Origin: an uncultured Verrucomicrobiota bacterium
GTDB taxonomy: Bacteria; Verrucomicrobiota; Verrucomicrobiia; Chthoniobacterales; JACTMZ01
Length of the DNA stretch: 64,000 nucleotides
Direction of reading: 5' to 3'
Assembly: GCA_903953565.1 (NCBI GenBank)
Contig: CAJBKE010000015.1
Span: forward strand, 62,001-126,000
Position numbers and translations under genes: made by a program. This document shows positions 26,567 through 35,772 of this stretch, one piece after another. Position 1 is the stretch's first letter; each line of letters opens with the position of its first letter. The notes below the pieces were generated by a model that had not been told where the DNA came from, made no database searches, and saw only the letters and a list, made by a program, of their open reading frames with translations.

Positions 26567-26970
26567 GGCTCGAGCCGACGGTGTGCGTGCGCGGGTTGGT
26601 GCCGGTTTTTGCCGGCACGATCACGGTGGTGCTGCTCCTCGTCTTTTTCCTGCTGCTCTCCACGTCGTTCATGATGCAGCCGGGCGTCGCGGTGGATTTG
26701 CCTGTCTCTCGTTTCCTCCTGCCGGCCATGCAGGACCCTCTGGTTGTTTCGGTCACGGGTGGTCCGGGCGCGGCGGTCTTCTTCGAGGATCGTGTGATAA
26801 AAACCTCCGAGCTGGGGGGACGTCTCGAGGCGCGCCGCACAGCTTCGCGTCAGGTGGTGATCAAAGCCGATGAAGATGCCCCGGTCTCCCTTGTCTCTGC
26901 GGTGACCGAGTTGGCCCTCGAACGCGGATTCGGTGTGGCCTTGGCCGCCACGCGCCGCCCGGAACCATGA
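26563..26970 (+). CDS. exbD: ExbD/TolR family protein
   Basis: The 135-residue protein has one N-terminal helix (VPVFAGTITVVLLLVFFLLL) and a periplasmic domain of the ExbD type (QVVIKADEDAPVSLVSAV). The motor aspartate normally found at the start of the ExbD helix is not obvious here (LVPVFAGTIT), a deviation worth noting. The stop overlaps the next start (ATGA). Confidence 0.75.
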   Translation: MRLEPTVCVRGLVPVFAGTITVVLLLVFFLLLSTSFMMQPGVAVDLPVSRFLLPAMQDPLVVSVTGGPGAAVFFEDRVIKTSELGGRLEARRTASRQVVIKADEDAPVSLVSAVTELALERGFGVALAATRRPEP

Positions 26971-27686
26971 TCCTCGCCGACCGCCTGCTGCAGGTTTTCC
27001 ATTGGCCGGCGGTGCACCAAATCCGTCTGGTGCTGCCAGCCATGATTCTGGTCTCCATCCTTGTGCACGCCGCGGGCCTTTATCTTGTCCGCGCGAAGAC
27101 TCCGCCACGCGCCGTGACGTTGCCGCCGCTACCGGGAAAAGTGACGATCATTTCCGCGGAAGATTCCGTCCTCCTCGCCGCGCGCGATCCGTCGTGGTTG
27201 CAGCCGGGGAGGTTCCGCGATCGTTTGTTGCCGCCGCCGCAGGTGCAACGTCCGCCCCGGGCGCTGCAACCGGAGTTACCGCCGCTGGCCCAGGTGCCAC
27301 CGGAACCTTTACCCGAGAAATGGGTACCCGCGCTGCCGCCGCTCGCCGTGCAATCGAGATTCGAGCCGCGGGCCACCGCTTCGGCGCCGTTGCTCGCCCC
27401 GGTCACGGCGCGCTTCGAGGCGGGTGGACCGGAAGTGACGAGCGATGTCCTTGTGCGTTTGGCTGATACCGCCCCGGCGCAACCGCCCGGTCTGCCGACT
27501 GAGCTGCTCGTGGTGCTCGATGCTTCGGGCGAAGCGCGTCATGTCTGGCTGGTGCGCAGCTGCGGCGATCCGGCCTTGGATGCGGCGGCTCGCCGTGCCG
27601 TGCAACTTTCGCGTTTCGGATCGTCGGAAAATGGCTACCGGGGCGTTTTGCGCGTTGTGTGGGGAGCGGCGAAGAAGGCGTTATGA
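26967..27686 (+). CDS. TonB-like energy transducer
   Basis: The 239-residue protein has an N-terminal membrane anchor (residues ~18-38, LVLPAMILVSILVHAAGLYLV) and a long proline-rich periplasmic spacer (residues ~70-150, many PPL/PPP). A compact C-terminal domain with the TonB-type fold pattern follows (LLVVLDASGEARHVWLVRS and DPALDAAARRAVQLSRF). The C-terminus is the region that contacts the TonB box of outer-membrane receptors. With exbB and exbD it forms a complete TonB system. No TonB-dependent receptor is in the window. It overlaps the next small gene (ATGA). Confidence 0.8.
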   Translation: MILADRLLQVFHWPAVHQIRLVLPAMILVSILVHAAGLYLVRAKTPPRAVTLPPLPGKVTIISAEDSVLLAARDPSWLQPGRFRDRLLPPPQVQRPPRALQPELPPLAQVPPEPLPEKWVPALPPLAVQSRFEPRATASAPLLAPVTARFEAGGPEVTSDVLVRLADTAPAQPPGLPTELLVVLDASGEARHVWLVRSCGDPALDAAARRAVQLSRFGSSENGYRGVLRVVWGAAKKAL

Positions 27687-30044: not shown

Positions 30045-30060
30045 CGGGCGCATACAGCTT

Positions 30061-30073
30061 CCCCCTGAGGGGG
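30061..30073 (+). terminator. small perfect stem-loop upstream of the ECF sigma gene
   Basis: CCCCCTGAGGGGG is a 5-bp stem with a TGA loop, 17 bp after the stop of the phosphorylase gene and before the ECF sigma gene. With no T-run it could act as a weak terminator or leader structure. Confidence 0.3.
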
Positions 30074-30099
30074 CGCGCTGGTAAGGTCTCCGTTTCCCC

Positions 30100-30696
30100 A
30101 TGTCTGAAACCCGCGAGGAACAGGAGATCAATGATGTCGACCTGGTGGCTCGCACCCAGGCGGGCGACCCGCGGGCGTTCGATGACTTGGTGCGCAAATA
30201 CAGTCCGCGCCTCTACGGTTTGGTCTACAACATGACTTCAAACCACGAGGACACGAACGACCTGCTCCAGGACATTTTTGCCAAGGCCTACCGTTCGATC
30301 AAAGGCTTCAAGGGCAAATCGAGCTTCTACACTTGGCTGCACACCATCGGGACAAACATGACGATCAATTTCCTGAAGAAGCGGTCCCGGACCTACAAGA
30401 TGAGCCTGGACGACGTGGATAATGGCATTCACAACGACCCTGAGTTCTTGGAACTGACCTCGGGGCCGGACGCAAGGCGAGAAGTTAATCTCAAAGAGCT
30501 GCAGGTTAGATTGAACGAGGCCATGATGAAGCTGTCGAATGAACACAGAGCAGTCGTCACTATGTTCGATATTCAAGGCATGCCGCACGCGGAAATTGGT
30601 AAAATCCTCGGAATCTCCGAGGGAACCGTTCGCTCGCGCCTTTTTTACGCCCACCGCCAGCTGCAAAACTACCTGCAGGAATTCCTGGTCAATTAG
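30100..30696 (+). CDS. extracytoplasmic-function (ECF) RNA polymerase sigma factor
   Basis: The 198-residue sigma factor has region 2 (DDLVRKYSPRLYGLVYNMTS, then DLLQDIFAKAYRSIKGFKGK) and a region 4 helix-turn-helix (HAEIGKILGISEGTVRSRLFYAHRQLQNYL). The central part FYTWLHTIGTNMTINFLKKR is region 2.4. It belongs to the RpoE-like group. It is followed by a small membrane protein (4-bp gap) and an HtrA-like protein, the gene order of sigmaE-RseA-DegS envelope-stress systems. Confidence 0.93.
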   Translation: MSETREEQEINDVDLVARTQAGDPRAFDDLVRKYSPRLYGLVYNMTSNHEDTNDLLQDIFAKAYRSIKGFKGKSSFYTWLHTIGTNMTINFLKKRSRTYKMSLDDVDNGIHNDPEFLELTSGPDARREVNLKELQVRLNEAMMKLSNEHRAVVTMFDIQGMPHAEIGKILGISEGTVRSRLFYAHRQLQNYLQEFLVN

Positions 30697-30699
30697 CCT

Positions 30700-31122
30700 A
30701 TGAACGCAGACATCCACAAACTCCTCCGCCTCAAACGCTACGAGGCCCCGACGTCCGACTATTTCGAGCGCTTTCTCGATCAATTCAACGAGCGCCAGCG
30801 CGCCGAACTGCTCCGTCAACCGACTTGGAGCCTGGTCTGGGAGCGCTTTGTGGGTGTATTTCCCGACTTTCATGTGCCGCGGTTGGCTTATGCAGGGGTG
30901 GCCGCCGCCGCCGTGATCCTTTCCGCGGTCATTCTGCTCAACCAGCAGGGCGTGACGCCGGCCGGCCCGAGCTTCGCGCTCAACGATCCGCGGCCTTCCG
31001 CGACGGTTCTACCCTCCGGTCGTGGTGACGTACGCATGCCGGTCACCTCGCGTTCCGACTTCCCGCCTCATTATGTTTTGGAGGCGAGGCCGGTGAGCTA
31101 TGAGTCGCCGTATAGTTTTTAA
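30700..31122 (+). CDS. putative membrane partner (anti-sigma-like) of the ECF sigma factor
   Basis: The 140-residue protein has a cytoplasmic N-terminus of ~60 residues (MNADIHKLLRLKRYEAPTSD), one membrane helix around residues 65-82 (YAGVAAAAVILSAVILL) and a periplasmic tail. This is the topology of RseA-like anti-sigma factors. The zinc HxxxCxxC motif is absent (no cysteine at all), so it would be a non-ZAS type if it is an anti-sigma factor. Its stop overlaps the next start by 23 bp. Confidence 0.6.
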   Translation: MNADIHKLLRLKRYEAPTSDYFERFLDQFNERQRAELLRQPTWSLVWERFVGVFPDFHVPRLAYAGVAAAAVILSAVILLNQQGVTPAGPSFALNDPRPSATVLPSGRGDVRMPVTSRSDFPPHYVLEARPVSYESPYSF

Positions 31123-32143
31123 TCTTTGTGCCGCGCTGGCTGGCGCGGTGCTGGCAGGCCCCGTCGGAGCAAATCCGGCGGGGTCGCCGCAGCTTCCGGA
31201 GACCGAGGGCTCCGAAGTAGCCGATGCCATCCAGGGCGCGGTCGATAATGTTTTCAAATCCGCGGCTCCGTCGGTCGTGCGGGTCGAATCGGAGGACGAA
31301 CTCGGCAAAGTGTCCGGGACCGGCTTCTTTGCCGATGCGACAGGAACCGTGTACACTCTGGCTTCGGTTGTCGGCGACGGTCTCGGTCTCTCCGTCTCGC
31401 GTGGCGATCAGCGCTGGCCGGCGAAATTGGTGACCAAGGACACGCGTAGCGGCATCGCTCTGATCCGTGTCGATGGAGCCGGCGCCACCCCGTTTCTCAA
31501 GCAGGGTGATTGCCTCAAGGTGCAGGCCGCTTCGCCACTTGTTGTTGTCGGCTTTCCCTTCGACCACGATGTTTCGCCGAGTTTCGGCGTGGTCGGAGGC
31601 CTCGATCGCAAGTCCCAGGGAAAATTTTTCGCCACCACGCACATCCGGGCCAACATTCCCGTGCAGCGCGGACAAGGTGGCAGTCCCGCCCTGAATCTCG
31701 ACGGCGAGGTTGTCGGTGTGCTGGTCAGTGGCATGGAGGATGGTGCCGGTTGCTTCGTGTTGCCCATCCGCGCCGCGGAGAAAGTGCGGTCGGATTTCGC
31801 GCGTTTCGGTGACGTGCGGCACGGTTGGGCCGGGGTCACGGTGCAGGAGATGCCTGTGGCGGTGAAGGGCTCGCGCATGATGATCGATGTGGTCGACCCG
31901 AACGGACCCGCGGCGAGCCAGTTCCGTTCGGGTGACGTGGTTCTCCAAGTGGGCGACATTGCCATTCGCGAACCGGAAGACGCCCTCGATGCATCGTTTT
32001 TTCTCACGGCTGGTGAACAGGTCGAGGTTCGCGTCGCGCGCGGCGAAGAGGTCATCACGGTTCCCTTCACTCCGGCCGAGCATCCGCTCGACCGCAAAGA
32101 CGAACTGCAGGCCCTTGGTCCCGGCAGCTTGATTGCACCTTAA
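31100..32143 (+). CDS. HtrA/DegS-like periplasmic protein lacking the catalytic triad (pseudo-protease)
   Basis: The 347-residue protein has a signal peptide (MSRRIVFNLCAALAGAVLA), a trypsin-like domain (residues ~50-215) and a PDZ domain (~240-320; SRMMIDVVDPNGPA, RSGDVVLQVGDI). In active HtrA proteins the catalytic residues lie in NAHVV, DIAL and GNSGGP. Here the matching positions read TLASVV (Ser89 for His), SGIALI (Gly118 for Asp) and GQGGSP (Gly193 for Ser). All three catalytic residues are therefore replaced while the fold remains. It may sense or bind, rather than cleave. The ORF is intact, so it is not a decayed gene. Confidence 0.75.
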   Translation: MSRRIVFNLCAALAGAVLAGPVGANPAGSPQLPETEGSEVADAIQGAVDNVFKSAAPSVVRVESEDELGKVSGTGFFADATGTVYTLASVVGDGLGLSVSRGDQRWPAKLVTKDTRSGIALIRVDGAGATPFLKQGDCLKVQAASPLVVVGFPFDHDVSPSFGVVGGLDRKSQGKFFATTHIRANIPVQRGQGGSPALNLDGEVVGVLVSGMEDGAGCFVLPIRAAEKVRSDFARFGDVRHGWAGVTVQEMPVAVKGSRMMIDVVDPNGPAASQFRSGDVVLQVGDIAIREPEDALDASFFLTAGEQVEVRVARGEEVITVPFTPAEHPLDRKDELQALGPGSLIAP

Positions 32144-35226: not shown

Positions 35227-35772
35227 ATGAAAGCCAAATTCCCCTTCATAACTTTTCTCGCCTTGGTGCTTGGCTTGATGCCTTTTTTCAATGCCCAGGC
35301 TCAGGATAGCTTGCCTGAATTCGCATTTCCTCCGGGGGTTGATTGGAGCAGCGCCACCCCGGACCAAATCGCGGATGCTGTCTTCAATGCGGTCAAAAGC
35401 AATCCGAATGCCGCCCCTGAAATCGCCGTGGCAGGCTTGCAATCGGCGGCAGCCACCGGGCGTTGGGCTCGAACTGCGGATCGGGACGGAAAGCAGAGCG
35501 TTGACCCCGATGGTTCTGCTGGTGATCCCGGAATCGAGGATATCGCCAACGTGATTTCCGATGCCGCCTCGCGGGCCAATCCCGCGATGGCTCCGCAGAT
35601 CAATTCTGCTATTGCCAATTCTTTGTCCAGCCTGCCGCCGGCTGGTAGCGGAAGCTCGGGCGGTGGCGGCGAAGGTGGTGGCGGCGGTGGAGGAGCTGTC
35701 GCTCCTGCCCCGATCCCCGGTGGCGGTGGCGGTGGCGGTGGTGGTGGCGGTCAGCAGCCAGCAAGCCAGTAA
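35227..35772 (+). CDS. exported protein with Gly-rich C-terminus, unknown function
   Basis: The 181-residue protein has a signal peptide (MKAKFPFITFLALVLGLMPFFNAQA). The central part contains TPDQIADAVFNAVKSNPNAAPEIAVAGLQSA, a helical region, with repeated Ala-rich helices after it. The final ~45 residues are Gly and Ser runs coded by GGT/GGC repeats (35650-35757). It is probably a surface or periplasmic protein. There is no homologue that I can name. The gene is between ispH and the convergent cysI gene, with a weak stem-loop (GTCGGC/GCCGAC) after the stop. Confidence 0.6.
   Translation: MKAKFPFITFLALVLGLMPFFNAQAQDSLPEFAFPPGVDWSSATPDQIADAVFNAVKSNPNAAPEIAVAGLQSAAATGRWARTADRDGKQSVDPDGSAGDPGIEDIANVISDAASRANPAMAPQINSAIANSLSSLPPAGSGSSGGGGEGGGGGGGAVAPAPIPGGGGGGGGGGGQQPASQ

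Follow-up and report, generated by a model that had tools for sequence, protein, structure and literature searches.

The window, by which we mean the whole stretch of 64,000 nucleotides of DNA that was analysed, carries a three-gene operon for an ECF sigma factor, a one-helix membrane protein and an HtrA-like protein. Alignment and profile searches show that the last of these is an exported HtrA fold with a PDZ domain, a conserved pseudo-protease without the catalytic triad. What is new here is its membrane partner, which looks like an anti-sigma factor and has a tail that looks like an OMP-type ligand of HtrA PDZ domains. From these sequence features we tentatively suggest, short of holding it probable, that the dead HtrA caps the anti-sigma tail in the manner of RseB and that unfolded OMPs may displace it, exposing the anti-sigma factor to an active HtrA and to RseP. 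The features of the locus are as follows.

30058..30084, + strand: promoter-like element CTTCCCC-N13-GCTGGTA, upstream of the sigma gene
30100..30696, + strand: ECF sigma factor gene, 198 aa, regions 2 and 4 (Pfam, NCBIfam)
30700..31122, + strand: one-helix membrane protein, 140 aa, proposed anti-sigma factor
30883..30939, + strand: predicted membrane helix, residues 62-80, LAYAGVAAAAVILSAVILL, a hydrophobic stretch found by eye
31066..31119, + strand: conserved C-terminal tail PHYVLEARPVSYESPYSF-COOH, last 18 residues of the membrane protein, proposed PDZ ligand
31100..32143, + strand: triad-less HtrA-like protein, 347 aa, with signal peptide, trypsin-fold domain at about 60-237 and PDZ at about 238-326
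31364..31366, + strand: Ser89 (TCG) at the catalytic His position, by alignment to active HtrAs of the same order
31451..31453, + strand: Gly118 (GGC) at the catalytic Asp position, by alignment; Gly in 90/90 order copies
31676..31678, + strand: Gly193 (GGT) at the catalytic Ser position, by alignment; GQGGSP replaces GNSGGP
31811..32077, + strand: PDZ domain (Pfam PDZ_2) with the carboxylate-loop-like motif R-x-G-W-x-G-[VI]

The three genes are co-directional on the + strand, and the membrane-protein and HtrA-like genes share a 23-nt overlap. The gene 5' of the sigma gene encodes a purine nucleoside phosphorylase (Pfam PNP_UDP_1) and the ORF 3' of the HtrA-like gene lies on the opposite strand. 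The sigma factor matched Sigma70_r2 (4.8e-18) and Sigma70_r4_2 (2.6e-13) in Pfam and exceeded the cut-off of the NCBIfam family sigma70-ECF (1.3e-31). It has regions 2 and 4 without region 3, as members of the ECF group do, and its identity across relatives is 63-93%. The order of sigma factor, one-helix membrane protein and HtrA-like protein, pointed out in the first-pass annotation, is conserved as an operon across the Chthoniobacterales (Verrucomicrobiota; 90 distinct copies) and in other families of the same class, in bacteria of soil and water. Orthologues were present in ten genomes of the same genus and in most other genomes of the order that were sampled, and orthologues of the HtrA-like gene were found in 80 named Chthoniobacterales loci, including one of the cultured Chthoniobacter flavus Ellin428 (L104). 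Two small genomes within the order (G017, G027; 0.9 Mb) have neither the membrane protein nor the dead HtrA, which would be in keeping with reduced symbionts. At L081:2688-3368, on the same contig as the L013 locus, genes for an anti-sigma-like protein and a dead HtrA are not preceded by a sigma gene; the closest gene on their 5' side looks like one for a response regulator. Elsewhere in the window, positions 35227-35772 encode a short secreted protein, without a Pfam match, whose C-terminal half is long and rich in glycine, and positions 26967-27686 encode a TonB-like protein (TonB_C below the cut-off), upstream of a FabF-like gene.

The promoter-like element, as CTTYCCC-N13-CTGKTA, is kept in 11/11 genomes of the genus, among them those with a different gene upstream. 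The pattern CTTYCCCN{13,15}TCTGKTA had a single occurrence in 8 of the 11 genomes, always just upstream of the sigma operon, and its reverse had none in the genus genomes; the element of the source genome differs from this pattern by a one-base mismatch. The element may be the sigma factor's own promoter. A regulon search with the motif in the genus genomes returned the sigma operon itself and no further targets.

The HtrA-like protein matched Trypsin_2 (7.1e-15) and PDZ_2 (4.1e-8) in Pfam, and a sequence search against solved structures led to HtrA proteases. Its top curated family in NCBIfam was 'Do family serine endopeptidase' with 112 bits against a cut-off of 416; it stayed below the cut-offs for DegS (57 vs 423 bits) and for MamO (31 vs 800 bits). 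A trypsin fold followed by a PDZ domain is thus present and the His-Asp-Ser triad is absent. The first-pass annotation had placed Ser, Gly and Gly where His, Asp and Ser should be, and alignment to active HtrAs gave exactly these residues, Ser89, Gly118 and Gly193; the PDZ domain and signal peptide that it had described were also recovered. In the PDZ motif, W243 is kept in 89/90 and G245 in 90/90 order copies. We modelled the homologue L020 joined by read-through to the product of the preceding gene, and the model had a pLDDT of 92-98 over the protease and PDZ domains. It matched DegP with a Z of 31.1 over 284 residues at 2.5 A; other matches were DegQ, AlgW with peptides and DegS with YQF or YRF peptides. 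Because the model is of L020, which is about 40% identical to the window protein, the geometry of the latter rests on the alignment. Read by eye, the HtrA-like protein offered no alternative set of His, Asp and Ser. Its sole well conserved histidine, H181 ('TTHIRAN'), appears by eye to lie in the strand before the Ser loop, opposite a Phe of the active enzymes.

The loss of the triad is neither a local oddity nor a matter of chance. Alignment of the relatives extended it class-wide, and among 90 distinct copies from the Chthoniobacterales not one keeps the catalytic His or Asp. The His site is occupied by S in 41 copies, T in 32, G in 8, A in 4, D in 3, E in 1 and Y in 1; the Asp site is G in all 90; the Ser site is A in 55, G in 33, S in 1 and Q in 1, and the one copy with Ser lacks His and Asp. 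Outside the order, the HtrA-like genes adjoining homologues of the membrane protein were all triad-less, as was L199 of another family. By contrast, the triad is intact in the ordinary HtrA paralogues that were sampled from the same genomes (L193-L198, L200-L228), with L196, which has Glu for Asp, as the sole exception. IQ-TREE, run on 27 pseudo and 23 active HtrA sequences, placed the two sets on either side of a single branch (100/100). The dead HtrAs likely share one ancient origin, a conclusion that falls short of proof because some branches of the tree are long.

The 140-aa membrane protein had no Pfam match at E values up to 1, including the Pfam anti-sigma-E families to which RseA belongs, and no NCBIfam match. 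Its gene lies directly behind the sigma gene in 106/110 loci of the order; of the four exceptions, two are cut by contig ends and two are one contig counted twice. The protein consists of a conserved basic segment, LLRLKRYEQPPxxYFxxFLxEFHRRQR, one helix, a variable linker and the tail, and its topology is inferred to be N-in, C-out, with the basic segment in the cytoplasm. A profile search found homologues in 82 of the 289 Verrucomicrobiota genomes sampled. In two distant homologues, L154 and L189, the conserved segment is immediately preceded by an N-terminal HX3CX2C zinc motif, which the window protein does not have; the zf-HC2 match of L154 in Pfam (E 0.12) was not significant. HX3CX2C is a hallmark of zinc-type anti-sigma domains. 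On the strength of its operon position, its topology and these two homologues, the membrane protein is very probably an anti-sigma factor, so that the identity proposed in the first-pass annotation gains indirect support. When sigma and membrane protein were modelled together as a read-through of the TAG stop, the pTM was 0.31 with no confident arrangement. An apparent fusion of the two, at L106:835-2025, was set aside as a probable frameshift of metagenome assembly, the sigma region 4 end being out of frame. In family f17 the homologue of the anti-sigma factor is longer, about 280-340 aa, and has no adjoining HtrA-like gene (L146, L148, L149, L155, L157, L159, L162-L164, L170, L172, L176-L178, L180, L183, L184); its C-terminus is mostly conserved, of the type LSDERLY..GDRLTLKF.

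The tail of the window protein ends in ..SYESPYSF. Across relatives the last 18 residues follow the consensus PRYVLDxxPVSYExxFRF. All 90 distinct sequences from the order have Phe at position 0, and position -2 is F in 52, L in 13, Y in 12, R in 8, I in 2, V in 2 and S in 1, that is, aromatic or aliphatic in 81 of 90. The PDZ domains of HtrA proteins recognise positions 0 and -2, with a preference for aromatic residues there, as with YQF for DegS and WVF for AlgW (PMC8545111). The tail has aromatic or hydrophobic residues at both positions of a free C-terminus, as OMP-type ligands of HtrA PDZs do. The BamA of the source genome ends in ..FNIGYQF and another barrel in ..NLNYAF. In the AlphaFold model of the L020 read-through fusion the HtrA part was excellent and the tail was disordered and undocked; since the fused tail has no free carboxylate, this is no evidence against binding.

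Class-wide, the membrane protein ends in F, Y or M in 125/125 distinct pairs of anti-sigma factor and dead HtrA, the sequences being related and hence not independent. The last seven codons of the tail overlap the start of the HtrA gene in most copies, which puts an added constraint on the tail. The pairs without gene overlap were inspected for this reason, and all 31 of them (of the 125) also end in F, Y or M. Outside the order, where a dead HtrA adjoins the sigma operon, 35 sampled homologues end in F (18), M (11) or Y (6), and position -2 is often non-aromatic (I, Q, L, V). Among the 34 sampled homologues that have the sigma gene but no adjacent HtrA, the last residue is F or Y in 26 and R, Q, E or K in the other 8. 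In genome G035 the tail Phe is kept though no copy of the dead HtrA was found. A strict co-occurrence of the F tail and the dead HtrA was therefore rejected, the tail being found more widely; since F or Y tails also occur without an adjacent HtrA, it either predates the dead HtrA or has a broader distribution. Loci with a dead HtrA always retain the tail. Six loci of family f18 (L036-L040, L044) have no dead HtrA in the operon, nor, judging by the best genome-wide matches, elsewhere, and their tails end in R, R, R, Y, R and Q.

Covariation between tail and HtrA was examined over 90 pairs by reduced-alphabet MI with APC. There was no enrichment of PDZ columns, and the top columns tracked phylogeny. 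In one clade with Arg at -2 (L021, L026, L028 and relatives), Glu247 and Glu249 stand in the PDZ strand in 8/8 sequences; Glu at 247 accompanies an aromatic -2 in 1/64. This is suggestive of a charge swap, in a single event.

A search for proteases elsewhere in the source genome found two RseP homologues (L229, L230) and at least three triad-bearing HtrAs (L236, L237, L239), which could do the cutting. The first-pass annotation had suggested a pseudo-protease that binds misfolded proteins or another protease; the tail, which it had not described, gives such binding a concrete candidate partner. We propose that the operon would work as an envelope-stress circuit like RpoE-RseA-RseB. Judging by the tail signature, the PDZ of the dead HtrA would bind the periplasmic C-terminus of the anti-sigma factor, a mimic of an OMP C-terminus. 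In unstressed cells the dead HtrA would cap and shield the anti-sigma factor, much as RseB protects RseA from DegS (PMC8103513). Unfolded OMPs with the same C-terminal signature would compete for the PDZ and free the anti-sigma factor, which would then be cut by an active HtrA (L236, L237 or L239) at site 1 and by RseP (L229 or L230) at site 2. The two cuts together would release the sigma factor. The dead HtrA would thus do the job of RseB on a DegS-like scaffold. This capping is suggested by the class-wide triad-less state, by a PDZ that outlasts the protease domain and by the ligand-like tail, and the f18 tails, which end in R, Y or Q where the dead HtrA is absent, also speak for it. Weighing against it are the broader occurrence of the tail, the lack of a covariation signal in the PDZ, the often non-aromatic -2 outside the order and the constraint that gene overlap puts on the tail.

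The main rival to capping has the opposite sign. The pseudo-HtrA would be an activating adaptor that docks either on the tail of the anti-sigma factor or on misfolded OMPs. From there it would bring in or switch on an active HtrA, perhaps as part of a mixed oligomer, and thereby favour cutting. We think this rather unlikely. The retained HtrA fold seen in the L020 model and the active HtrAs of the same genome agree with such a role, and MamO, which promotes MamE-dependent proteolysis (PMC4794232), is a precedent. However, mixed oligomers are without direct evidence, and in part of family f15 the protease domain is no longer matched by Pfam and the PDZ still is. A PDZ that outlasts a decayed protease domain suggests that binding alone suffices. 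The tail might instead be read by the PDZs of active proteases, a DegS-like HtrA or RseP, with the pseudo-HtrA as a competitor or as a separate chaperone made under stress. Both RseP homologues bear PDZs, several active HtrAs are at hand, and F or Y tails persist in lineages in which no pseudo-HtrA was found (f17, G035). Against this stand the strict association that ties the pseudo-HtrA to the operon of sigma and anti-sigma factor, which argues for a dedicated role, and the loss of the tail in f18, a family without pseudo-HtrA. We consider this explanation unlikely.

That the membrane protein is an anchor or cofactor of the HtrA-like protein and no anti-sigma factor would fit the lack of a match to any curated anti-sigma family and the unconfident model of its fusion to sigma; its constant place behind the sigma gene, the basic cytoplasmic segment and the two HX3CX2C homologues make it improbable. 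It is very improbable that the tail is a BAM-type beta-signal which senses how busy the OMP assembly machine is. The terminal signature is indeed shared with BamA and another barrel of the source genome, but the tail has no glycine at the usual place, has a frequent proline at the fifth residue from the end (37/90), and is separated from the membrane helix by about 40 residues, a short span for contact with the outer membrane. Finally, degeneration of the protease domain in several families might make the dead HtrA a decaying relic without function. There are, however, 29 invariant columns over 27 sequences, the frames are open throughout, the operon is constant and the origin is probably single and ancient, and a relic is hardly credible.

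Compared with RpoE-RseA-RseB-DegS-RseP of E. coli and AlgU-MucA-MucB-AlgW-MucP of Pseudomonas, the operon has in common an ECF sigma factor, a one-helix anti-sigma factor, a periplasmic modulator and an HtrA fold with a PDZ. OMP C-termini as the likely signal and a site-2 protease in the genome are further likenesses. In contrast to those systems, the HtrA-like protein of the operon is triad-less and cannot cut, no RseB/MucB-type protein is encoded in the operon, and the putative anti-sigma factor has no Pfam anti-sigma match and ends in a putative OMP-like PDZ ligand. DegS and AlgW share with the HtrA-like protein the trypsin-like domain and one PDZ, and are among the closest solved folds (DegS-YQF/YRF, AlgW-tripeptide/decapeptide); the HtrA-like protein differs in having lost His, Asp and Ser and in being apparently secreted by a signal peptide. 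With RseB and MucB it would share the role of capping the anti-sigma factor against site-1 cleavage. It matches neither in Pfam or NCBIfam and has an HtrA fold, whereas RseB has another fold. MucE of Pseudomonas is not an OMP, yet an HtrA PDZ recognises its C-terminus, ..RWVF (PMC8545111); in the present operon a dead HtrA would do the reading, and the anti-sigma factor would itself supply the ligand.

The first-pass annotation had called pseudo-HtrA regulators little described, and our literature search agrees, with the exception of MamO of magnetotactic bacteria. MamO is likewise related to HtrA, has a degenerate triad and acts non-catalytically; it is a proven inactive protein that binds metal, activates MamE and acts in magnetite formation (PMC4794232). 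Unlike the dead HtrA, it has no link to a sigma/anti-sigma pair. In the open-access literature searched, no pseudo-HtrA tied to a sigma/anti-sigma operon and no anti-sigma factor with an OMP-type C-terminus was reported. ECF classification work could list the operon without comment.

The RpoE paradigm combines a cutting sensor, DegS, with a separate shield, RseB. More tentatively than for capping itself, we put forward as a possibility a class-wide switch in which the anti-sigma factor mimics an unfolded OMP in the PDZ of the dead HtrA, real OMP C-termini compete with it, and a pseudo-protease stands in for the DegS sensor as well as for the RseB shield. The model of dead HtrA and tail yields simple peptide-binding predictions. 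If it is true, a PDZ alone can sense, through competition rather than catalytic activation, and the operon would offer a first way into the control of envelope stress in Verrucomicrobiota, the cultured Chthoniobacter among them.
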